Of a stretch of 64,000 nt of DNA, positions 9,325 through 47,437 are shown piece by piece. The position numbers were made by a program, and so were the translations under genes. A model generated the notes under the pieces. That model was not told where the DNA came from, did no database searches, and was given only the letters and a program-made list of their open reading frames with translations. Position 1 is the first letter of the stretch, and each line of letters begins with the position of its first letter. Source of the stretch: Dehalogenimonas lykanthroporepellens BL-DC-9 (GTDB taxonomy: Bacteria; Chloroflexota; Dehalococcoidia; Dehalococcoidales; Dehalococcoidaceae); NCBI GenBank assembly GCA_000143165.1, contig CP002084.1, positions 496,001-560,000 of the forward strand, given 5' to 3'.

Positions 9325-10984
9325 GAGGCTGTGTCACAAAAGCTGGTGAAAGTGTCTGAATAGCGGGATTTATTTAGGTGCACTGATTTAAGGTAAACAA
9401 GAATGGGGAAAACAAGAAAAAGGGCAAATACCCCTCTTTATTCTATCCTGTTTCTGCCTGTTCCAGGCGCCGGAGCAGGCCAGGCACCCCGCCACTTAGC
9501 GTAATCATCCGGGCTATGTTGAAGCTACCAGCCAATAATCCCCATTCGGCCTTCACTCCAGCCAGTCCTTTAAGGAGGAAATTCCCGCAATTGAGATTTC
9601 GCTTGATATGTCCGAAGGGTGATTCTACCCGGGCTTTACGTTTCTGGTAGATTTCCTGACCCTCTGCTGATGCATACCGCGCTTCCAATGCTTCTCTCAG
9701 TTTCTCTTCCTTTAACCGGATGACAGTTCTGCCGCGCTTGGAAATGGTGCATGTTCCCCAGTATCGGCACTTCAGGCATAATGCCGGCTTCTCCATCCGG
9801 TACAGGTAATTACTCTTCTGTCTTGAATAGTGGGAATATTTCAGCTTCTTACCTTCAGGACATTCATAACAGTCAGCTTGTTCATCATAGCGAAACTTGC
9901 TCTTGTCAAAGGGTGAGTCCTGAGGGCTGTGAAGGGCTTGCCTTTGCGTCGGTACGATAACGTCAATTTGTTTTTCAGTTGTCCGTTTCAGATTGTCCAT
10001 ATTCGAATATCCAGCGTCGGCCACCGCTGTTCGGCAGGGCTTACCCAGTGTTATCATCGCCTGTTCGATTTGTTGCGAGAATTGATTGCTGTCATTGGCC
10101 TCGGCTACTACATCGGCATTAACTATAAGTCCGTGTTGCTCATCTACGGTTATATGCGCACTATAACCGGCATAAGTACCCTGACGCCCTTTGACGTTTA
10201 GACACTCCGGGTCGGTGCTGTTTATCCGGGATAACTTCTCTTTGTCTAACTGCTTTACCAGCCCCTTGATCTTGCTTTGTAGTTTTTGACGGTCTTCCAG
10301 TTCTTCTTTCATTTCTACCAGATTGCCGGATTCATTCCGGTCTATCTGCTCACACCTGGCAAGCAGTTCTTCGATAGCTTTGTCCGTTTCGGCCAGCTTC
10401 TGTTCCCATGCCTTCCTGGTCAATGTCCGGCTGGTGGCCGCCGCTCCTTTCATCTTGGTGCTATCGGTGAAGAGACAGTTGCCTTCTATCAGATTCATCT
10501 TGAGACAAATGCGAGCAGTCTGTTCAAGAACTTTCCTCAATACCTGCTGGTTACCCCGCCTGAAATTGGCTATGGTCTTATGGTCGGGTTTGAGTCCTCC
10601 CATAAGCCAGATGAATGATAGGTTATGATGACAGGCTCTCTCCAGCTTTCGGGAGCTATGCCAGCCATAGGAATAGCCATAAACCAGCAGTTTAAGCATG
10701 GATTTGGGGTCATAAGCCGGATTGCCGACCAGGGAACGGTCGATGGTCAATCCCATTTGATCGCAGTCCATAGCTTCCACTATGGCATCATAAGCTCTGA
10801 CCGGATCCTTGGGCCCAACATAGTCTTCAATAACCGGTGGTAGCATCGCCATCTGTCGGCGGTCGCCTTCTCTGTAAGCCATCTTTGCCCTCGAAACGTT
10901 CGTATTACCAGCTAATTATTGCCCTATCTCCGATACGTTTCAACTATTTTTTTCGGCTAACAAAAGTAATTGTGACACAGCCTC
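9325..10984 (-). mobile_element. IS1182-family insertion sequence inserted in a palindromic repeat
   Basis: Perfect 15-bp terminal inverted repeats GAGGCTGTGTCACAA lie at 9325-9339 and, inverted, at 10970-10984, enclosing one intact transposase gene (1660 bp in all). The flanks TTACCCATTTTC and TTTTATGGGTAA rejoin to the module C palindrome found uninterrupted elsewhere in the window. A 4-base duplication is possible (TTTC against TTTT) but imperfect. Confidence 0.88.
9443..10882 (-). CDS. IS1182-family transposase
   Basis: A 479-residue transposase. The N-terminal part (LPPVIEDYVGPKDPVRAYDAIVE, YDPKSMLKLLVYGYSYGWHS, LSFIWLMGGLKPDHKTIANFRR) is the DUF772/IS1182-IS5-type domain. The DDE core follows (FTDSTKMKGAAA, VADAGYSNMDNLKR) with an intervening coiled-coil insert near residues 165-215. 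A cysteine cluster (CYECPEGK, CLKCRYWGTC) and the C-terminal Glu region RVESPFGHIKRNLNCGNFLLKG complete it. The frame is intact from ATG to stop. Confidence 0.93.
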   Translation of the reverse strand: MAYREGDRRQMAMLPPVIEDYVGPKDPVRAYDAIVEAMDCDQMGLTIDRSLVGNPAYDPKSMLKLLVYGYSYGWHSSRKLERACHHNLSFIWLMGGLKPDHKTIANFRRGNQQVLRKVLEQTARICLKMNLIEGNCLFTDSTKMKGAAATSRTLTRKAWEQKLAETDKAIEELLARCEQIDRNESGNLVEMKEELEDRQKLQSKIKGLVKQLDKEKLSRINSTDPECLNVKGRQGTYAGYSAHITVDEQHGLIVNADVVAEANDSNQFSQQIEQAMITLGKPCRTAVADAGYSNMDNLKRTTEKQIDVIVPTQRQALHSPQDSPFDKSKFRYDEQADCYECPEGKKLKYSHYSRQKSNYLYRMEKPALCLKCRYWGTCTISKRGRTVIRLKEEKLREALEARYASAEGQEIYQKRKARVESPFGHIKRNLNCGNFLLKGLAGVKAEWGLLAGSFNIARMITLSGGVPGLLRRLEQAETG

Positions 10985-11130
10985 TTTTATGGGTAATGAC
11001 AGAGAGTGGTAGATATTCAATGATACCGAGATTGCTTTGCGGCCGATGGCCGCTCGCAAGGACGGGGTGGTTGCGGGATACCGGGATTGCTTCGCCGATG
11101 AGGGCCGTGTGCAATGACGGGTAATAATTG
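10985..11130. repeat. Right half of split palindrome and two A-type repeat modules
   Basis: TTTTATGGGTAATGACAGAG continues the repeat interrupted by the IS1182-type element, followed by two A modules (about 11024-11070 and 11080-11120). The second is degenerate, with the internal palindrome altered. No gene is seen between here and the ATP synthase promoter. Confidence 0.75.
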
Positions 11131-11211
11131 AGCTGATGCCTGTGTTGGTGTCCAGGGATATACCGGCCTTTGGACATGGAAAGCGAAGTCTTAGACGGCC
11201 GGGATTAGGAC

Positions 11212-11240
11212 TTGACCCGTATGGCTGGTTCTGCTATGCT
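11212..11240 (+). promoter_or_regulatory. Probable promoter of the ATP synthase operon
   Basis: TTGACC (11212-11217), a 17-base spacer and TATGCT (11235-11240) give a good sigma-70-type promoter about 20 bases before atpZ. No other promoter-like sequence of this quality is visible before the operon. Confidence 0.65.
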
Positions 11241-11263
11241 TTTGCGGGTTTTTAAGGCAAATG

Positions 11264-11476
11264 ATGAACCACTGGCTGACTGCCCTGAAGTTCATAGGGA
11301 TAGGCTGGTATATCAGCTTTGCCATCCTTGGTGGGGTGCTGGGCGGACGCTGGCTTGATGAGCGTCTCAACAGTGAACCGTTCTTGTTAATCACAGGACT
11401 ATTCCTGGGTCTGATAGCGGCCTTTTTCGGAGCGTATCAGATGGTGAACGGAACGAACAATAAACGCCGAAAATAG
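11264..11476 (+). CDS. atpZ: AtpZ/AtpI-type small membrane protein of ATP synthase operon
   Basis: A 70-residue protein with two membrane helices (about residues 6-27 and 40-60) and the GGVLGGRWLDERL motif between them, typical of AtpZ/AtpI-like proteins encoded first in F-type ATPase operons. Family members have been linked to magnesium/calcium uptake or c-ring assembly. The second of two consecutive ATGs (11264) lies six bases after AAGG and is preferred. atpB starts 14 bases later. Confidence 0.82.
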   Translation: MNHWLTALKFIGIGWYISFAILGGVLGGRWLDERLNSEPFLLITGLFLGLIAAFFGAYQMVNGTNNKRRK

Positions 11477-11490
11477 CAAGGAAACCGCTC

Positions 11491-12447
11491 GTGCCTGAGA
11501 AGAAAAAAATCGTGGGAATGTCCAAACCGGTGTTTATCGCCGTATTGCTGGTTATTCTGGCCGTTACTATCGTCAGCTTTCTCGCCGGTGGTATCGGTCA
11601 GGCTTTATTCGGGATAGACTTTCCCGAATGGCTGACCGTCAAACAGCCCGAACCCCATCTGCCGCCGGCGCCCATTTTCCATATCGGCGGCTTTGCTGTA
11701 ACCAATACCATCCTGACCGCCTGGATTTCCATCATTCTGCTGGTGCTGCTTTTCTGGGCGGCTACCCGCCGGATGAAACTGATCCCAGGACGCTTTCAGG
11801 CAATTGCGGAAAGCGTCATCGGTTATCTGTACGATTTCTGCACCGATATCGCCGGTGAAAAAAACGGCCGCAAGTTCTTCCCGCTGGTGGCCACCATCTT
11901 CCTGTTCGTAATTACCAACGCGTTGATGAACCTGATTCCGGGTTACAATTCATTCCTCATCAACGACGGTAATCACATGGTTCATCTGCTCCGGGGCGCC
12001 AATACCGACGTCAATTTCCCGCTGGCTCTGGCGGTGATTTCCTTTGTCATGGTGGAGTACTGGGGTCTCAAGACCATCGGTGTATTACACTACCTGAGCA
12101 AGTTCTTCAACTTCGGCCCGCTGATAAATTCCTTCAAGAACTTCCGTAAAGAAGGACTGATGGGTGTTTTTAACGGCTTGATAGCCATATTTATCGGTTT
12201 GATAGAGTTGATGGCCGAGTTCATCCGGATAATCTCTTTCACCTTCCGTCTTTTCGGCAATATGACGGGCGGTGAGATTCTGCTGGTGTCCATGCTGTTC
12301 CTGATGCCGTTCCTGCTGGCTTTGCCTTTCTACGGCCTGGAACTGCTGGTGGGTTTCATCCAGGCGCTGATCTTTGCCGGTCTGACCCTGGTTTTCGCCC
12401 ATATTGCCGTTACCCCTCATTCCGAAGAAGCCTCGGAAAATCATTAA
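11491..12447 (+). CDS. atpB: ATP synthase F0 subunit a
   Basis: A 318-residue membrane protein forming the proton channel. It starts at GTG. After an N-terminal helix (residues ~12-35) and an external segment come the family helices. The motif FIRIISFTFRLFGNMTGGE near residues 240-260 contains the essential stator arginine, and the last helix carries the polar IQALIFAGLTLVFAHIAV. The protein is longer than the E. coli subunit because of its N-terminal region and a loop around residues 150-175. It is second in a canonical atp operon. Confidence 0.95.
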   Translation: MPEKKKIVGMSKPVFIAVLLVILAVTIVSFLAGGIGQALFGIDFPEWLTVKQPEPHLPPAPIFHIGGFAVTNTILTAWISIILLVLLFWAATRRMKLIPGRFQAIAESVIGYLYDFCTDIAGEKNGRKFFPLVATIFLFVITNALMNLIPGYNSFLINDGNHMVHLLRGANTDVNFPLALAVISFVMVEYWGLKTIGVLHYLSKFFNFGPLINSFKNFRKEGLMGVFNGLIAIFIGLIELMAEFIRIISFTFRLFGNMTGGEILLVSMLFLMPFLLALPFYGLELLVGFIQALIFAGLTLVFAHIAVTPHSEEASENH

Positions 12448-12488
12448 TAGCAGTCCAAACATAGCATAAAGGAAAAAGGAGAAAAGAC

Positions 12489-12719
12489 ATGGAATTGGAT
12501 GCAGCAAGACTCTTGGCGGCCGGTCTGGCCATGGGCCTGGGCGCTATCGGCCCCGGCATCGGTATCGGTATTCTGGGTAGTGGCGCAGTCAACGCCGTTT
12601 CGCGCAATCCTGAAGCTCGCGGCCCCATCTTCACCAATCTGCTGTTCGCAGTAGCGCTGGCCGAAGCTGTCGCCATTTACGCGCTGGTTGTTTCGATTCT
12701 TTTGATATTCGTAGCCTAG
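12489..12719 (+). CDS. atpE: ATP synthase F0 subunit c
   Basis: A 76-residue two-helix hairpin proteolipid of the rotor ring. The first helix has the glycine-rich GLGAIGPGIGIGILGSGAV, the loop is RNPEARGP, and the second helix carries the ion-binding glutamate in FAVALAEAVAIYALV. The sodium-type ligands (Gln in helix 1, Ser-Thr after the Glu) are absent, so proton coupling is the better inference. AAGGAG sits before the ATG. Confidence 0.95.
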   Translation: MELDAARLLAAGLAMGLGAIGPGIGIGILGSGAVNAVSRNPEARGPIFTNLLFAVALAEAVAIYALVVSILLIFVA

Positions 12720-12743
12720 TTGTCCTAGAGGGAGGTTCTACCA

Positions 12744-13244
12744 GTGGATAAACTGGGGATAGATTTAGCTAGTTTCATAGCCCAATTGGTCAACTTCGGC
12801 ATACTGCTGGGGCTGTTGTATCTGGTGGCCTACAAACCGATTCTGCGGATGATGGACGGCCGTGCCGCCCGTATCAAGGAGAGTCTGGAGCAGGCTGAAG
12901 AGACGAAAAAACAGGCTGAAGCCGCCGAGGTGGAGTTCAAGCGACAGATTGCCGAAGCCTCCAAGCAGGGGCAGGCAGTCATCGAACGGGCATCCCGGAC
13001 TGCCGACGAAATCCGGCAGAAGGCGCAGGAAGAGGCCAGGACCGAAGCCGAGGCGCTGATAACCCGGGCTAAAGCCGATATCCGCCGCGAGCGGGACGAG
13101 GTTATCGATGAACTGCGCAAGGAGTTCGCCGATCTGACTGTTCTGGCCGCCGGCAAGGTTATCGGTAAGTCGCTGGACAAGGAAGCCCATCGCGACCTTA
13201 TCAACCAGGTGCTGGAAGAAAGCACTCAGTTAAGAAAGAATTAG
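12744..13244 (+). CDS. atpF: ATP synthase F0 subunit b
   Basis: A 166-residue peripheral stalk subunit. It has one N-terminal membrane helix (FIAQLVNFGILLGLLYLVAY) followed by a long charged coiled coil (about residues 35-140, rich in Ala, Glu, Lys and Arg) and a C-terminal delta-binding part (LAAGKVIGKSLDKEAHRDLI). It starts at GTG with GGGAGG about seven bases upstream. There is a single b subunit gene, not a b/b' pair. Confidence 0.94.
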   Translation: MDKLGIDLASFIAQLVNFGILLGLLYLVAYKPILRMMDGRAARIKESLEQAEETKKQAEAAEVEFKRQIAEASKQGQAVIERASRTADEIRQKAQEEARTEAEALITRAKADIRRERDEVIDELRKEFADLTVLAAGKVIGKSLDKEAHRDLINQVLEESTQLRKN

Positions 13245-36885: not shown

Positions 36886-37605
36886 TTAGCGCTGGTCGGA
36901 CAGTTGCTGGTTAAGCTTATCGAAGCTTTCCAGCCATTTGAGCTTGACCTCGTCACTCCATTCCGGGTCGAAGGCCGGCAGTTTCTCCAGGAGCAGTCGG
37001 TTGAGGTCAGGACTGGTGGCTGTTTTTGCCGATGGCTGTGGCGGGGGGTAGGGCGATTCTGAAACCTGCTCGGGTGCCGGGTCGGGGCGAATGGAGCTGT
37101 TTTCCGGCAGTGAGCGCCGGGTTTTTCGGGACCCGCCGGCTCGGGTGGCTTTGGATTTCCGGGTGATGAAGGTGGACAGGCTGATGCCGGATTCTTCACA
37201 GATACCGATGAAGAACTTGATGCACTTGCGACTGACGTCTCCGGTGACCGGGAAATTTTCCCGGAGTTTTTCTTCCAGCTGGGAGTAGGTAGCCGAGGCT
37301 GGATCCAGCGATTCCAGGAAAAACGGATAGGCCTCATGGGCCAACTGCCGCAGGAGGTCGGCCCGCTGGGCGCCGACGGCGAATACTATCTGTCGAAGGC
37401 GGAGGGTTGGGACGCCGTTGGCGTCAATCAGTTTGAGGTATTTGAGCGCCGCTACCAGCTGGGCTCCGGTACTGCCCGAAAAACGGTCACCCCAGAAACT
37501 GCGGTCGATTCGGCTGGGTATCGCCGCTTTGAGTCCTTCAAGGAAATTCCAGAAAGTCCGGTAGGACACATACGGCGGCAACGTCCTGGTAACTGGTAAA
37601 TTCAT
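36886..37605 (-). CDS. DUF5343-like protein
   Basis: A 239-residue protein. The first ~145 residues (LPPYVSYRTFWNFLEGLKA, IPSRIDRSFWGDRFSGSTG, LVAALKYLKLID and PTLRLRQIV) match the uncharacterised DUF5343 pattern, with a winged-helix-like flavour; then comes a basic linker with many Lys/Arg/Ser/Pro (about residues 145-200) and a short helical C terminus. A DNA-binding or regulatory role is possible but unproven. I start at 37605 (MNLPVTRTLPPY); the 25 codons upstream overlap promoter-like DNA. It is divergent from the small gene at 37789. Confidence 0.65.
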   Translation of the reverse strand: MNLPVTRTLPPYVSYRTFWNFLEGLKAAIPSRIDRSFWGDRFSGSTGAQLVAALKYLKLIDANGVPTLRLRQIVFAVGAQRADLLRQLAHEAYPFFLESLDPASATYSQLEEKLRENFPVTGDVSRKCIKFFIGICEESGISLSTFITRKSKATRAGGSRKTRRSLPENSSIRPDPAPEQVSESPYPPPQPSAKTATSPDLNRLLLEKLPAFDPEWSDEVKLKWLESFDKLNQQLSDQR

Positions 37606-37631
37606 ATTCAAACAGCCCAATTTTATGCCAG

Positions 37632-37716
37632 CCGGACAAAAATAACAAGAATTTTCCGGCCTGTTTTGGACAAAAAACAAATGACTTTGGTAATTGTCCG
37701 GACGAATTCGGACAGT
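37632..37716. promoter_or_regulatory. Cluster of TTGTCC/GGACAA motifs between divergent genes
   Basis: GGACAAA occurs at about 37634 and 37668, TTGTCC at 37694-37699 and CGGACAGT near 37709-37716. The last two form a TGTCCG/TCGGACA inverted pair. Repeated motifs in a divergent promoter region suggest a regulator's binding sites (inference). Confidence 0.35.
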
Positions 37717-37788: not shown

Positions 37789-38007
37789 ATGGGAACAGCA
37801 ATCGACTATCAGAAACTCATGACCGAGATCGTATTCATCAATCTACCGGGGCCGGAGGAGCCGCAACCGGGGATGAGCGGCGGCGAGCTGTTGCACGGAT
37901 TCCTGGCCGAACTCAAGCGGGCACCTGATGCCAACACCAGGGCCTATATTGAAAGCATCGCCGCCAAGTGGAGCGTCCGGTTCCGCAACACCGGTAAATG
38001 CGAATAA
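37789..38007 (+). CDS. Small hypothetical protein upstream of ftsA
   Basis: A 72-residue, mostly helical soluble protein beginning GTAIDYQKLMTEIVFINLPG and ending VRFRNTGKCE. No family is recognised. GGGAG lies 11 bases before the ATG; an in-frame ATG at 37747 overlaps the -10 element. It is 67 bases ahead of ftsA on the same strand, so it may be co-transcribed with the division genes. Confidence 0.55.
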   Translation: MGTAIDYQKLMTEIVFINLPGPEEPQPGMSGGELLHGFLAELKRAPDANTRAYIESIAAKWSVRFRNTGKCE

Positions 38008-38074: not shown

Positions 38075-39268
38075 ATGAAAAAGACGAGACTTGCAGCCAT
38101 AGACGTCGGCACCACCAAGGTGGTAACGATCATGGCTGACGCCGATGAGGCCGGTATTCGGGTGCTCGGCGTTGGGGTGACGCCGTCTCGTGGCCTGCAG
38201 AAAGGCATGGTGGTCAACCTGAACGAGGCGCGTGACGCCATCAAGCGTTCGGTGGGCATGGCTGAACAGTCGGCTGGTTACAAACTGGATGGGGCGGTAG
38301 TCAGCATTACCGGAAGACATATCCACTCCACCAACAACCGTGGCGTGGTCGCCATTTCAAGAAAAGAAGAAACGGTACGGCCGCCGGATGTGGCCCGGGT
38401 ACTGGAAGTAGCCCGCAATGTCACCATTCCCGGCGACCGGCGCATGCTTCACCTCCTGCCACTGGCCTATACTGTAGACGGCCAGGAAGGAGTCAGAAAT
38501 CCGGTCGGCATGCACGGCTTCAAGCTGGAAGTCGAAACCCACATGGTCACGGCTTCGGCGACCTCGCTGGAAAACCTGGTCAAGTGCTTCAAGGGCGCCG
38601 GCATAGGTGTGGAGGAAATTATCTTCAGCCCGCTGTCGAGCGCCGAAGCGACATTGTCCACTGATGAAATGCAGAACGGTGTGGTGCTGGCCGACATCGG
38701 CGGGGGCACCACCGATATTGCCGTCTACAAGGACGGCAATATCATCCATACCTCGGTATTGCCGGTGGCCGGCTATCAGATCACTCACGATATCTCGGTC
38801 GGCCTGGGGGTGACCTGGGAACTGGCCGAGGAAATAAAGATGCGGTACGGTTCGGTCTTTCCGGTGACCTCCGACGCTGAGGAGATGCTGTCCGAAGGCG
38901 GCCACTCCTTCCCCCATTCCCAACTGACCGAAATTATCCGGTCGCGCCTGGAAGAAATGGTGCGACTGGTGCTTATGGAAGTACCGACCGAAGATTATCA
39001 GAACCTGCTGAGGGGCGGTATAGTCTTTACCGGCGGCAGTTCCAATCTGCCCGGCCTGGCCGAGCTGGGAACGGAGGTTTCCCGGTTGCCGGTACGCATC
39101 GGCATGCCGCCGGTGATGTACGGTGTATCCGAACGTCTTAATGACCCGGCTTTCGCTACCGCCATCGGCCTGATAATGTGGAAGGTCAACGATAGGACCG
39201 GCATCCAGGTCAAAGCCGCCGGTCCGGCCGAAGGCGGAAAATTCCTTGGTCTTTTCAAGAGAAAATAA
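38075..39268 (+). CDS. ftsA: Cell division protein FtsA
   Basis: A 397-residue actin-fold ATPase that tethers FtsZ to the membrane. Phosphate-1 loop AIDVGTTKVVTIMAD, the 1C insertion (SITGRHIHSTNNRGVV), phosphate-2 VVLADIGGGTTDIAVYK and the adenosine motif GIVFTGGSSNLPGLAEL are all clear. The C-terminal basic end KFLGLFKRK fits the membrane-targeting amphipathic helix. AAGGAG precedes the ATG. ftsZ follows after 30 bases. The rest of the dcw cluster is not nearby. Confidence 0.96.
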   Translation: MKKTRLAAIDVGTTKVVTIMADADEAGIRVLGVGVTPSRGLQKGMVVNLNEARDAIKRSVGMAEQSAGYKLDGAVVSITGRHIHSTNNRGVVAISRKEETVRPPDVARVLEVARNVTIPGDRRMLHLLPLAYTVDGQEGVRNPVGMHGFKLEVETHMVTASATSLENLVKCFKGAGIGVEEIIFSPLSSAEATLSTDEMQNGVVLADIGGGTTDIAVYKDGNIIHTSVLPVAGYQITHDISVGLGVTWELAEEIKMRYGSVFPVTSDAEEMLSEGGHSFPHSQLTEIIRSRLEEMVRLVLMEVPTEDYQNLLRGGIVFTGGSSNLPGLAELGTEVSRLPVRIGMPPVMYGVSERLNDPAFATAIGLIMWKVNDRTGIQVKAAGPAEGGKFLGLFKRK

Positions 39269-39298
39269 AAACTCAATAAACTTTAATGAGGAGTAAAA

Positions 39299-40435
39299 AT
39301 GGCTAAGACTATCTATGTACCCAGTGGTGCCAGGATCAAGGTAATCGGCTGTGGCGGTGCCGGCTGTAACGCGGTCACCCGAATGGTCAGAGAACAGATT
39401 CGAGGCGTGGAATTCGTCGCCATGAATACCGACGCGCAGGCGCTGGCTGTTACCGAAGCCCCTCTGCGCATCCAGCTAGGCGAGCGCTGTACCCGCGGCC
39501 TGGGCGCCGGCGGCGACAACAGGATGGGCCGCAAGGCGGCTGAGGAAAGCAAGGAAGAAATCAAGCAGGTGGTCGGTGAATCCGACATGGTGTTTGTCAC
39601 CGCCGGCATGGGCGGCGGCACCGGTACCGGTTCGGCGGCTGTCGTAGCCGCCGCGGCCAAAGCCAGCGGCGCCCTGACCATCGCCGTAGTTACCAAGCCC
39701 TTCAGTTTCGAAGGCACCCACCGCACCCAGGTAGCCGAAGAAGGCATTACCGAACTGATGGACGCGGTGGATACCCTGATACTGATTCCCAATGACCGAT
39801 TGTTCGAGATCTGCGACCAGAAGACCGGTGTCGATGGCGCCTTCCGCATGGCCGATGAAGTGTTGCACCATGGTGTACAGGCCATCGCCGAGGTTATTAC
39901 CGTTCCCGGCATTATCAACCTGGACTTCGCTGATGTTCGTGCGGTGATGCAGGATGCCGGCCCGGCCTGGATGAGCATCGGGCATGGCAAGGGCCAGAAC
40001 CGGGCGGTGGAAGCCGCCCGTCAGGCGCTGACCAGTCCTCTGCTGGACGTTTCGGTCGAAGGCTCCAAAGGTTGTATCTTCAACGTTGTCGGTAACAGCT
40101 CGCTGTCGTTGTTCGAGGTCAATGAGGCCGCCGATGTCATCCGCCAGGCAGTTGATCCCGAAGCCAACGTCATCTTCGGCGTGACCGTCGATGAATCCAT
40201 GAAGGACGAGGTGAGGTTGACCCTCATCGCTACCGGTTTCGCTGACCGGATGACCTCGCTGGACAGCCGTGACAAGGAGATTACCCGACTATTACGCAAT
40301 ATCAAGACTGAAAAGGAACTGGAAATCCCGGCATTTCTGCGGCAACGCGGATTGATGGGGGCCAACCGCCGGCCTGAGCCGGTTGCCCGTCCCGCTGCGC
40401 CCGTTTCAAATAACAGCTTCCAGAAACGCTGGTAA
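39299..40435 (+). CDS. ftsZ: Cell division protein FtsZ
   Basis: A 378-residue tubulin-fold GTPase forming the division ring. Motifs: KVIGCGGAGCNAVTRMV, the tubulin signature GMGGGTGTGSAAVVA near residue 105, and the T7 loop NLDFADVRAVM. The C-terminal linker (PEPVARPAAPVSNNSF) is short and the conserved terminal FtsA-binding peptide is poorly kept (FQKRW). AGGAG precedes the ATG. Confidence 0.97.
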   Translation: MAKTIYVPSGARIKVIGCGGAGCNAVTRMVREQIRGVEFVAMNTDAQALAVTEAPLRIQLGERCTRGLGAGGDNRMGRKAAEESKEEIKQVVGESDMVFVTAGMGGGTGTGSAAVVAAAAKASGALTIAVVTKPFSFEGTHRTQVAEEGITELMDAVDTLILIPNDRLFEICDQKTGVDGAFRMADEVLHHGVQAIAEVITVPGIINLDFADVRAVMQDAGPAWMSIGHGKGQNRAVEAARQALTSPLLDVSVEGSKGCIFNVVGNSSLSLFEVNEAADVIRQAVDPEANVIFGVTVDESMKDEVRLTLIATGFADRMTSLDSRDKEITRLLRNIKTEKELEIPAFLRQRGLMGANRRPEPVARPAAPVSNNSFQKRW

Positions 40436-40486: not shown

Positions 40487-40561
40487 TGGAATCTGTTGAC
40501 CGGTTATCAGCCGTCACCGGGACGAAAACTCCGTAAACACGATTCTTCCCGCCTCATGATA

Positions 40562-40615
40562 AAAGAAGAAGACCGTCGGGCCTCCTCCTCCCCCGACGGT
40601 CTTCTTCTTTCATTT
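40562..40615. terminator. Bidirectional intrinsic terminator between ftsZ and the Ala-rich gene
   Basis: A 19-bp stem AAAGAAGAAGACCGTCGGG and its inverse flank a nine-base loop, followed by CATTTATT. It lies between convergent genes and can serve both. Confidence 0.88.
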
Positions 40616-40643: not shown

Positions 40644-43016
40644 CTAGTTGATGGCACCAAGGGCTACCGCAAACATTACCGCGGCCAGAACGATACTGAG
40701 ATTGATGACCACCAAAAGGGTGATCCAGGTGCCGCTGGTGAGGCGTTTGATGACAGCCTTGACCATTGCCTCTTCAGCCTTGGACAAGGCTTCGTTGGCC
40801 GCCTCACGGGCTGAGACGGCCATGTTTGCGGCCCGGGCGGATGATTCACGGGAAGAAGCCGCTGAATCTTCGGCGGCGCGAACGGCGGTATCGGCGGCAT
40901 TTCTGGCCGCCGACTCTGCCCGTTCGGCGCGGGCCCCGGCTTCTTCGGCCGCTTTTTTTGCGGTGGTGGCGACAGATTCAGCTTCCCTGGCCGATTTTTC
41001 CGCCCGCTCGGCGGCTTCAGCCGCCAGACGGGAAGCCCGGTCGATGGCTTCCCGGGCGCTGGCCTCGGCCTTGCCGGCCGCTTCTACCGCCGCCGCGGAG
41101 GCGGCTTCAGCTTTCTCAGCGGCTTCAGCGGCGGACCGGGAAGCCGCTGAAGAGGCTTCACGAGCCGATTTGGTCGATAAATCAGCCGAAGCACGGGCGG
41201 CGGCCTCGGCCTGGGCGGCGGCTTCAGTTGCGGCTTTCGCGGCTTCTTCGGCTTTGCGTACCGCTTCATTAGCGGCGTTTTCCGCCTGTGAGGTGGCTTT
41301 TTCGGTCAGGGATTCGAAAGAGGCCACCGCTGACCGGACGCTTTTATCGGCGGCCTGAGCCTGAGCTGAAGCGGACTCGGCGGCGGCGCGAGCCGATCGG
41401 GATGTTTCAGTGGCTGAGGCCGCGGCTTTTTCGGCTTTACTCACCGCCTCGGCGGCGGCGGCTTCAGCCTGGGCGGTGGCCTGCGCGGTGGTTTTCTGGA
41501 AATTCTCCACTGCCTCCCGGGCGCTGTGGTCTGCAGTTTCGGCTCGTAATGACGCGGCTTCAGCCGCTTCCCGGGCCAGACGTGAGGTTTCGGTGGCTCT
41601 GGCGGCGGCGTCTTCGGCCGCCTTTTTGACCTCCAAAGCCCGAGAATTGGCCGATTCTATGGTCTGTGACGTTAACCGGTCGGCGGCTTCACCGGCGGTA
41701 TCAACCAGGCTGTCGCCGGCTTCATCGGCTTTTCCAGCCTGAACCTTGACGGCCAGAGCGGTATCGAATCCCTGGCGGGCGGCTGACTTGGCGGCGTTGC
41801 CGGCTTCAACGACGCCGGCTGAAGAATCGCCTTCAATATGGGTGGCTGCTTCCAGGGCGACGTCACCGGCGATATTGGCTAGTTCGGAACGACGGGCGGT
41901 ATCTTCAGCCGCCCGGAAAGCGGCGGCGGCGGCTGACTTGGCGGCCCGGCCGGCCCTGAGTGCCCGGGTTATGGTTTCCCGGCTTGGTTCGTGTAACAAC
42001 GCTGACGCCACTTCAGCGGCGTCGGCGGCGGCTTTTTCCGCCTGACTGCCGGCGGCCAGGGCTTCTTCAATGGAGTTTTCCAGGGCTTCCCTGGTGGACA
42101 AGGCGGTAAGTTCGGCGCGGGCGGCGGCTTCTTCCGCGGCGCGGGCGGCCGCCTGGGCCGACTCGAGGGCGGTCATTTCGACATCCTGGGCTTTCGCGGT
42201 AGCTTCTTCGGCGGCATACTTGGCGGCCCGGGCGGTCTTTTCCGCCTGAGCGGCGGCTTCTTCGGCCCGGTGGGCGGCTTCCGAAGCGACCTGAGAAGCC
42301 TGCTCGGCGGCTGATCTGGCGGCGTTGGAGGCTGATTCAGAACGCGCGGCGGCGTCTTCGGCCAGACGCCGGGCTTCTTCTGCCGAATCCAGGGCTTTGG
42401 TGGCGGCTTCCTGCGCCTTGCGCATGGCTTCAGCGGCGGCTTCCTGGACGGATCGAGACGATTCTTCGGCCCTGGCGGCGGCGGCCAGGGCGGCCTCGCG
42501 CGCGGCGTCAGATGCTTTTCGGGATTCTTCGGCCATGCGCTGGGCGGCCAGTCCGGCGGTTTCGGCGCGCCTGGCGGCTTCGTCTGAAACCTTAGCCGCT
42601 TCTTCCGCGGCGGTCCTGGCCGAAGCTCCGGCTATCTCGGCCTTTTGGGCGGCTTCATCGGCGGTTTTCTGAAAAACCTGAGCCGCCGTTTCAGCGCCCT
42701 GCTTGGCTTCCTCCGCTTTGCCGGCGGCCTCATCGGCGGCTTTCTTGGCTTCGCTGGCCGCGGTGGCTGCCGCCCGGGTGGCCTTTTCAGCGGCTTGCTC
42801 TCCGGCCTGGCGGGCTTCCACGGCTCTTTTATCGGCTTCGTGAGCGGCTTTGGTGGCGTTGTCTGCGGCACCGGAAGCCTGGGCGGCGGCGGCTTCCGCC
42901 TGGCGGGCGGCCTGAACCGCCGCCCGGATATTGGCATCCATCTCATCGAGAATCTGGGGCAGAGGCTTGATCAGGATTTGCGGTTCTGGTTCGTGGGAAT
43001 CCGGGCTTTTACTCAT
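40644..43016 (-). CDS. Giant Ala-rich tail-anchored coiled-coil protein
   Basis: A 790-residue protein of unknown function. The first ~25 residues are Pro-rich (HEPEPQILIKPLPQILDEMD); residues ~30-750 are an almost continuous helix of Ala with regularly placed Glu, Lys, Arg and Ser; the end (VIKRLTSGTWITLLVVINLSIVLAAVMFAVALGAIN, split here around TWITLLVVINLSIVLAAVM) is one membrane helix. It would sit in the cytoplasm anchored by its tail. Two adjacent blocks near residues 495-615, each starting ATETSR, align with a 61-residue offset, showing internal duplication. A middle part (about residues 370-450) is less regular. The start is 43016 with AGGA before it. It converges on ftsZ. Confidence 0.7.
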   Translation of the reverse strand: MSKSPDSHEPEPQILIKPLPQILDEMDANIRAAVQAARQAEAAAAQASGAADNATKAAHEADKRAVEARQAGEQAAEKATRAAATAASEAKKAADEAAGKAEEAKQGAETAAQVFQKTADEAAQKAEIAGASARTAAEEAAKVSDEAARRAETAGLAAQRMAEESRKASDAAREAALAAAARAEESSRSVQEAAAEAMRKAQEAATKALDSAEEARRLAEDAAARSESASNAARSAAEQASQVASEAAHRAEEAAAQAEKTARAAKYAAEEATAKAQDVEMTALESAQAAARAAEEAAARAELTALSTREALENSIEEALAAGSQAEKAAADAAEVASALLHEPSRETITRALRAGRAAKSAAAAAFRAAEDTARRSELANIAGDVALEAATHIEGDSSAGVVEAGNAAKSAARQGFDTALAVKVQAGKADEAGDSLVDTAGEAADRLTSQTIESANSRALEVKKAAEDAAARATETSRLAREAAEAASLRAETADHSAREAVENFQKTTAQATAQAEAAAAEAVSKAEKAAASATETSRSARAAAESASAQAQAADKSVRSAVASFESLTEKATSQAENAANEAVRKAEEAAKAATEAAAQAEAAARASADLSTKSAREASSAASRSAAEAAEKAEAASAAAVEAAGKAEASAREAIDRASRLAAEAAERAEKSAREAESVATTAKKAAEEAGARAERAESAARNAADTAVRAAEDSAASSRESSARAANMAVSAREAANEALSKAEEAMVKAVIKRLTSGTWITLLVVINLSIVLAAVMFAVALGAIN

Positions 43017-46246: not shown

Positions 46247-47437
46247 GGAACCTCTGAAAAACACATAGTTGTAAAGTTTCGGTGATATTGTTGGTGATAT
46301 CTTGCGCCCACGAAGCGAAACCGCAGTGTTTTTGGCAGGTTACACCGGCCTTTATCCGGTTTGCTCCACCCTGAAGGAGCGGTTTTCCGGTTATTGGGCG
46401 CAATTCACCCTTCAGGTTGCCATCATGCTTAATTCCCGGCGTACCAGATATAAATTAGCCAGCGTGAACAGGCTGAAGACCTGCACCATATTCTTGTGGA
46501 GGCCTTTGTATTTGACCTTCCGGTATCGCCATAGATGCTTGACCACCAGAAACGCATGCTCACCCTTGGCTCGAACTTTGCCTTGTCTTCGGTTAAACTC
46601 GGCGTCTTCCGGTGTCAGTTGATAGTGCCGGCTGGCTTTGCGTTTTACCCGCCAATCAATGCCTCGGGATTCGTAACGTCTTTGCCTTTCCTCACTGGTA
46701 TAGGCTTTATCTCCATAGACCGCCTTTTCCTCTCCGTGCAGTAACTTATCCATGACCTGTGAATCATGAACTGAGGCATCGGTCACCACTATCGTATGCG
46801 CCAGTCCCTTGCCGGTGTCTGCGCCTATATGAGCCTTCATGCCAAAATACCACTGATTCCCCTTTTTGGTCTGTCGCATCTGTGGGTCTCGGGCCTTATC
46901 CCGGTTTTTGGTCGAAGATGGCGCATTGATTATCGTAGCGTCGACTATTGTCCCTTCTTTTAACAATAAACCTTTGTCTGAAAGATAATTCCTTGTCTTT
47001 TCAAATAACGCCATGGTCAGATTGTGCTTCTCCAGCAGATGACGAAAATGCAGTATAGTACTTTCATCCGGTACAGGGTCAGATTGGATATCGATTCCGG
47101 CAAATCGTCTCATCGATTCTATATCGTAAAGCGCGTCTTCCATCGCCGGATCCGATAAACCGTACCACTGTTGCATGAAATATATCCGTAGCATGCGCTC
47201 CAGCGGCATTGGATGTCGACCATTACCGGCTTTGGGGTAATACTCAACTATGATTTCCAGTAGTTCTTTCCAGGGAATTACCCGATCCATTTCCTGAAGG
47301 AATACTTCCCGTCGCGTCTGTTTCTTTTTGTTAGCATAAGCCAGACTGGCAAATGACAAGGTCTTCATTAACTTCGCCATCCTTCGTTTATGGATGACTA
47401 ATTATACCTCATCAAACGTGACTTGTTCAGAGATTCC
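46247..47437 (-). mobile_element. IS5-family insertion sequence with TTAA target duplication
   Basis: Terminal inverted repeats GGAACCTCTGAAAAA (46247) and GGAATCTCTGAACAA (inverse, ending 47437) enclose one transposase gene. TTAA occurs at both borders (46243-46246 and 47438-47441), fitting the YTAR 4-bp duplication of the IS5 group. Total length is 1191 bp. It lies between lepA and cbiE. Confidence 0.85.
46412..47380 (-). CDS. IS5-family transposase
   Basis: A 322-residue DDE transposase. The N-terminal DUF772 domain has YYPKAGNGRHPMPLERMLRI and YFMQQWYGLSD; catalytic residues are in GTIVDATIINAPSS (first Asp), AVYGDKAYTSEERQ (second Asp) and the Glu region KVRAKGEHAFLVVKHLW. No internal stop; probably active. 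Confidence 0.93.
   Translation of the reverse strand: MAKLMKTLSFASLAYANKKKQTRREVFLQEMDRVIPWKELLEIIVEYYPKAGNGRHPMPLERMLRIYFMQQWYGLSDPAMEDALYDIESMRRFAGIDIQSDPVPDESTILHFRHLLEKHNLTMALFEKTRNYLSDKGLLLKEGTIVDATIINAPSSTKNRDKARDPQMRQTKKGNQWYFGMKAHIGADTGKGLAHTIVVTDASVHDSQVMDKLLHGEEKAVYGDKAYTSEERQRRYESRGIDWRVKRKASRHYQLTPEDAEFNRRQGKVRAKGEHAFLVVKHLWRYRKVKYKGLHKNMVQVFSLFTLANLYLVRRELSMMAT

Follow-up and report, generated by a model that had tools for sequence, protein, structure and literature searches.

The gene at 43016-40644 and its maintenance as protein

What does a 790-residue, alanine-rich protein do beside the division genes ftsA and ftsZ? The question is raised by a gene on the minus strand at 40644-43016 of the window (the whole 64,000-nucleotide stretch of Dehalogenimonas lykanthroporepellens DNA that was analysed, from a genome of one contig of 1,686,510 bp). 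The coding sequence, delimited by its open reading frame, composition and orthologues, begins with ATG at 43016-43014 and runs for 790 codons to a stop, with GGAGG (43033-43029) lying 12 nt 5' of the ATG. It converges with ftsZ (39299-40435, plus strand), as an earlier note on this DNA had described. The product, here termed L for the long member of its family, contains 35% Ala, 13% Glu, 9% Ser, 7% Arg and 5% Lys.

A low-complexity artefact, with the frame held open merely through G/C-rich alanine codons, would share the alanine richness and the repetitiveness, and the opposite strand also has long open frames. Against this, pairwise dN/dS among Dehalogenimonas orthologues with estimable dS was about 0.10-0.23, a rough value to be read only to the order of magnitude because dS was near saturation, and third codon positions differed about 2-5 times as much as first or second positions. 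Orthologues were found across the order, with head, bundle and tail conserved throughout. The artefact, already ruled out by this conservation, was considered vanishingly improbable, and the alanine-rich frame is, as claimed earlier, a real gene kept as protein by purifying selection.

Architecture of the rod protein

The sequence of L shows a conserved N-terminal head, alanine-striped rods, a middle domain and a C-terminal membrane helix with preceding positive charge. On the minus strand, the head motif (residues 10-38, EPQILIKPLPQILDEMDANIRAAVQAARQ; 42903-42989) was placed with the head alignment and profile; the short head contains several prolines, in keeping with the Pro-rich head first noticed. 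It is followed by rod segment 1, an alanine-striped helix (residues ~39-256; 42249-42902), the central three-helix bundle (residues ~257-445; 41682-42248) and rod segment 2 (residues ~446-758; 40742-41681). Both rod segments were assigned from stripe analysis and structure prediction, and the bundle from its conservation and structure prediction. The single C-terminal membrane helix that had been reported was recovered from hydropathy and structure prediction at residues ~759-789 (40650-40742), with a maximum Kyte-Doolittle mean of 2.78 over 19 residues. Such a helix lay within a few residues of the C terminus in 39 of 43 long relatives, and at least some of the 4 exceptions are cut or disrupted sequences. 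The basic stretch KAVIKR that precedes it suggests, by the positive-inside rule, that the rod portion is cytoplasmic.

AlphaFold2 run on 23 relatives predicted helix nearly throughout, with high confidence confined to residues ~280-445, where three helices were packed as a bundle; the remainder was predicted helical at low to moderate confidence. When predicted alone, the bundle domain gave a mean pLDDT of 94.5 and a pTM of 0.76. The middle domain is thus confidently predicted to be a three-helix bundle, which does not agree with the "almost unbroken helix" of the earlier note. Two copies of the bundle profile were found in some relatives.

The Ala-versus-charge pattern produced a single spectral peak at 100.17 ± 0.18 degrees, or 3.594 residues per turn, in 64 entries that include some overlapping pieces of the same gene, and this peak was about 4-14 times the 99th percentile of shuffles. 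Heptads would lie at 102.86 degrees and 11-residue repeats at 98.2 degrees; periodicity at 7 and 11 residues was checked, and neither matched. The stripe is therefore nearly straight in all relatives measured and is neither heptad nor 11-residue, so that "coiled coil" needed correction as a description. In the D. lykanthroporepellens rod, the stripe face is 55-71% Ala, carries almost no charge and keeps a roughly constant direction along the molecule. The head-to-bundle spacing ranges from 239 to 638 residues across the family, and the distinct spacings were in phase at the stripe angle (R 0.77) and not at the heptad or 11/3 angles, a clustering that restates the continuity of the stripe and is not independent of it. 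Fully extended, a rod of this size would measure on the order of 100 nm (1.5 Å per residue).

Two adjoining 61-residue blocks opening with ATETSR lie in rod segment 2, at residues 474-534 (41415-41597) and 535-595 (41232-41414), both on the minus strand. Self-comparison supported the earlier observation of this pair, with 37 of 61 residues identical and the rod matching itself best at an offset of 61 (z 9.4). The proposed growth by internal duplication holds for the pair in D. lykanthroporepellens, but the pair was absent from the orthologues of three sister species, and family-wide the head-to-bundle spacing steps by roughly whole helical turns. As 61 residues equal 17 turns within about ten degrees, a duplication of this block preserves the stripe.

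A helix rich in Ala, Glu, Lys, Ser and Thr with small residues on one face would also suit a stress protein, either soluble or bound to the membrane, that resembles LEA proteins or amphipathic coats and shields membranes with no structural partner. This was judged very improbable, as the rod lacks the 11-residue repeat (98.2 degrees) that is a trait of LEA group 3, no LEA match was found in the Pfam scan, and bundle and head are conserved. Intermediate-filament-like proteins, crescentin and FilP among them, resemble L in that they are long, helical and have been proposed to act mechanically; they differ in being heptad coiled coils without a tail anchor, whereas the stripe of L has 3.594 residues per turn.

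A rod family nearly confined to the Dehalococcoidales

Judged by its sequence, L is the long member of an undescribed family of tail-anchored helical rods nearly confined to the Dehalococcoidales. The hallmark is the head motif KPLPQILDEM(D/E)xNI, whose core is almost invariant, an invariance somewhat overstated because part of the set was gathered by patterns from the motif itself. L has all the parts: the head I-(L/M)-x-K-PLP-x-ILDE-(M/L), the alanine-striped rod, the central bundle and the tail anchor. With a 45-residue head profile, relatives were detected in 7 of 11 Dehalococcoidaceae and 55 of 156 Dehalococcoidales genomes, and outside the order a draw of about 300 Chloroflexota yielded only two marginal matches. 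Full members were found with the bundle profile in two genomes elsewhere in the class (G503 and G549), and the restriction to the order is accordingly near rather than complete.

Three members are present in D. lykanthroporepellens: L, a medium member M (412 aa) that adjoins thrS and rplT, and a short member S (101 aa) that has no membrane helix and adjoins an mtaB-like gene. In Dehalococcoides the genes for M and L follow one another on the same strand, and several family f36 genomes show this tandem order for L and a short member, which suggests joint action. L, M and S were all missing from four Dehalogenimonas species (G002, G003, G004 and G007) in the head profile search. A whole-protein search was also without a match in these four, where swamping by alanine-rich sequence was suspected, and the head profile confirmed the absence.

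No convincing family was found for the rod protein in Pfam, NCBIfam or PHROGs, and none for the head alone or the bundle alone in family databases. The best matches of the head profile among PDB sequences were de novo designed toroids and helical designs, which were read as matches of composition. The PDB structure search with the bundle returned generic helical bundles among the matches listed (Smac, MIC60, spectrin repeats, chemoreceptors and designed bundles), with Z values that may reflect a common arrangement only. Nothing was found in a viral structure library at E below 0.001, and a literature search found no work on these rods.

Linkage to the second ftsAZ operon

Two ftsAZ pairs are often present in the Dehalococcoidales: one follows mraZ-rsmH, and the other is accompanied by a 72-aa gene and a DUF5343-like gene. 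Across the order, the FtsZ tree divides the products FtsZ1 (mraZ-rsmH operon) and FtsZ2 into two clades. The pair beside L is the second. Its ftsZ2 (39299-40435, plus strand) was assigned from operon markers and the FtsZ tree, and its ftsA2 (38075-39268, plus strand) from operon markers. The markers, defined by comparative neighbourhoods, are a conserved 72-aa gene of no assigned family (MGTAIDYQK...; 37789-38007, plus strand) and a conserved DUF5343-like gene divergent from ftsA2 (36886-37680, minus strand; below the Pfam cut-off). Between the convergent stops of ftsZ2 and the rod gene, at 40559-40613, RNA folding located a 22-nt inverted repeat (40559-40580 and 40592-40613; -37.8 kcal/mol, z -8.0), which could be a shared two-way terminator. 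The D. lykanthroporepellens genome has two complete ftsAZ pairs, at 38075-40435 of the window and at ~1,215-1,217.4 kb of the contig (G000:C1, locus L188). Transcripts of both ftsAZ clusters, DET0342-0343 and DET0635-0638, are recorded for D. mccartyi 195 (PMC4340931).

Of 29 genomes examined, 19 place the long rod gene no further than about 6 kb from the second ftsAZ operon; they span five families, and the gene order takes three layouts. By chance, roughly 1% of a genome would be this near the second pair. Because the genomes are related the count is not a p-value, but its spread over five families and three layouts speaks against a single arrangement passed down by descent. In the first layout the rod gene lies behind ftsZ2 and convergent with it (four Dehalogenimonas and G056, where the rod frame is interrupted). 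In the second it lies behind the DUF5343-like gene (G011, G049, G413 and G415) or some 2-3 kb further (G385, G399, G401, G402 and G405). In the third it is directly upstream of ftsA2 and co-directional (G044, G428, G429 and G430); in G432 it is likewise upstream and co-directional, with the DUF5343-like gene in between. The second-operon label in family f35 rests on the FtsZ tree and G432, as the DUF5343-like gene was otherwise not found there. The rod gene lies away from the second pair in three Dehalococcoides and in G025, G055, G358, G360, G045, G396 and G377. A family member lies by the mraZ-rsmH operon instead in G357, and G026 has a rod with a single ftsZ of the mraZ type. The comparison of the ftsZ-downstream gene in relatives, proposed earlier, thus revealed homologues at the locus, and the link to division, formerly drawn from position in one genome, gained a comparative basis.

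A gene of 108-126 aa follows ftsZ2 in G002, G003, G004 and G007 and in Dehalococcoides. It occurs together with L in two Dehalogenimonas species; in D. lykanthroporepellens and its closest relative, L is the only one of the two that was found. The 108-126 aa gene (locus L146, 9088-9411, plus strand; locus L149, 8094-8471, minus strand), which lies behind ftsZ2 in many relatives, shows weak similarity, under the cut-off, to winged-helix/MarR-like models. In two Dehalogenimonas, ftsA2 is closely preceded by a second, short ftsA-like ORF of ~150 aa (locus L144, 12281-12739; locus L145, 12549-13007). Compared by eye, the C-terminal tail of FtsZ2 showed no obvious change with rod presence. Elsewhere in the window, a transposase gene (322 aa; 46412-47380, minus strand) lies just after lepA, and a copy with the same N-terminal sequence was seen at locus L150 (3903-4868, plus strand).

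The linkage also bears on a reading of L as a tail-anchored adaptor for recruiting ribosomes, or soluble complexes of another kind, to the membrane, its position near ftsAZ2 being incidental. ElaB and YqjD (DUF883), which have been proposed to bring ribosomes to the membrane, share with L a C-terminal membrane helix on an alanine-rich helical body, and M adjoins thrS and rplT in D. lykanthroporepellens. However, ElaB and YqjD are ~100 aa against the 790 of L and have no head motif or bundle, and no match of the rod protein to the DUF883 model was found in the Pfam scan at E up to 0.1. With the repeated ftsAZ2 linkage also against it, the adaptor was deemed improbable.

CetZ tubulins and headless rods

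Three CetZ-type tubulins are encoded in D. lykanthroporepellens (PF00091 and PF21011 above cut-off); their best PDB match was 4b46, which we take to be a haloarchaeal CetZ. An assignment of these extra GTPases to FtsZl1-type systems (PMC2875224) was rejected, as they match CetZ_C instead. One CetZ gene (locus L214, 9250-10470, plus strand) is tail-to-tail with a gene (10535-12808, minus strand) for a 758-aa alanine-striped rod without head or membrane anchor; the two occupy ~568.2-571.8 kb of the contig (G000:C1), 8-12 kb right of the window end, the CetZ gene at about 8 kb. Headless rods without a membrane helix (425-910 aa) adjoin CetZ at eight more loci (L157, L158, L159, L160, L161, L212, L219 and L220), usually tail-to-tail, and CetZ genes without a rod neighbour were found at L215, L216, L217, L218, L221 and L153. 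These rods resemble L in their long one-sided stripe and in lying tail-to-tail with a gene for an FtsZ-superfamily GTPase. They differ from L in having neither head motif nor membrane anchor, in a C-terminal R-(L/M)-x-x-L-x-x-M-(F/Y)-like motif, in a period of 100.45-100.8 degrees and in showing no significant sequence similarity to it.

Two or more CetZ genes were found in 22 of 22 good genomes with the head family versus 5 of 20 without it (Fisher p 1.6e-7, kinship ignored), which favours a shared role in shape without demonstrating one. In G002, G003, G004 and G007, 0-1 CetZ genes were counted instead of 3, a joint loss with the head-motif rods.

CetZ is a shape protein in haloarchaea, and the co-occurrence is therefore also a point for the main rival reading, in which L, anchored by its tail, would build a cortical layer or bundles beneath the membrane of the wall-less cell without binding FtsZ, its linkage to ftsAZ2 reflecting a shared morphogenesis regulon. 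The long continuous alanine stripe would suit bundling or membrane contact, and ftsAZ2 linkage is lacking in Dehalococcoides. It is the repeated linkage to ftsAZ2 in different layouts that speaks against this reading, which we regard as possible though rather unlikely.

A proposed tether and spacer for a second Z-ring

We tentatively prefer a reading in which L is a tail-anchored cytoplasmic rod that works with FtsA2 and FtsZ2, similar in role to EzrA or ZipA and not a member of those families. The C-terminal helix would anchor L in the membrane; the rods, whose small residues form one uninterrupted face, may pack with partner rods in straight bundles or lie along the membrane; and the head at the far end may bind a shared partner, for which the FtsA2/FtsZ2 polymer is the likeliest choice. 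L would then be a tether and spacer organising the second Z-ring in peptidoglycan-free cells. We infer this partner, oligomeric state and function from several lines of evidence: purifying selection with conserved head, bundle and tail; the 19 of 29 linkage, with the rod gene on the same strand directly upstream of ftsA2 in four genomes; the separate FtsZ1 and FtsZ2 clades, together with a confidently predicted bundle loosely like the spectrin repeats that form the unit of EzrA; and the second rod family, encoded tail-to-tail with CetZ tubulins in these genomes.

The absence of FtsW from 41 of 42 genomes also favours the tether and spacer, the sole match lying at a contig end and possibly being contamination. 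FtsW did not serve to separate genomes with the rod family from those without, as nearly all lack it. This group is reported to have no peptidoglycan layer and to have lost dcw genes with retention of mraZ, mraW, ftsA and ftsZ (PMC10608941). FtsAZ here operates without septal wall synthesis, so that tethers and scaffolds could matter more.

EzrA is a spectrin-like FtsZ regulator of Firmicutes built from spectrin-repeat units (PMC4243239). It shares with L a one-helix membrane anchor, a long all-helical cytoplasmic part, a triple-helix bundle and FtsZ association, in L by genome position only. EzrA has an N-terminal anchor and five bundles, whereas L has a C-terminal anchor, one bundle (two in some relatives) and long alanine-striped rods. 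The EzrA family model gave no match to the rod protein in the Pfam scan at E up to 0.1, and in the structure search spectrin repeats appeared at Z 8-9 and EzrA was absent among the matches listed. ZipA, a membrane tether of FtsZ, likewise combines one membrane helix with an extended linker into the cytoplasm and a role near FtsZ and FtsA, as would L. The polarity of ZipA is opposite; L has no globular FtsZ-binding domain, and its linker is a long helix.

Several observations count against the tether and spacer. The linkage is lacking in Dehalococcoides and seven other genomes with the second operon, and G026 has a rod with only an mraZ-type ftsZ. M and S adjoin unrelated genes, four Dehalogenimonas species divide without the family while retaining both ftsAZ pairs, and the bundle matches only generic helical folds among the matches listed. 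The tail-anchored long helical scaffold beside the division genes that the earlier note envisaged gains support from the linkage to ftsAZ2 and from a nearly order-specific family; the coiled coil and the almost unbroken helix needed correction.

To the question of how FtsA and FtsZ divide bacterial cells and maintain their shape without peptidoglycan, the present family contributes a candidate component that is almost specific to one order (head motif, rod, bundle and anchor) and tied to one of two ftsAZ operons, alongside CetZ-type tubulins with rod partners of their own in bioremediation bacteria, and its head and bundle are short enough for direct expression and testing. As a more speculative extension, less likely than not to prove right, the Dehalococcoidales cytoskeleton may pair FtsZ/tubulin-superfamily GTPases with dedicated long alanine-striped rods: FtsAZ2 with the tail-anchored rods that bear the head, and CetZ with the soluble rods that lack it. 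These struts would lengthen by whole helical turns, keep the packing face continuous and take on some of the mechanical work of the lost wall. Kept beside the second ftsAZ pair, L is a good candidate for an internal scaffold that helps wall-less cells divide or hold their shape.
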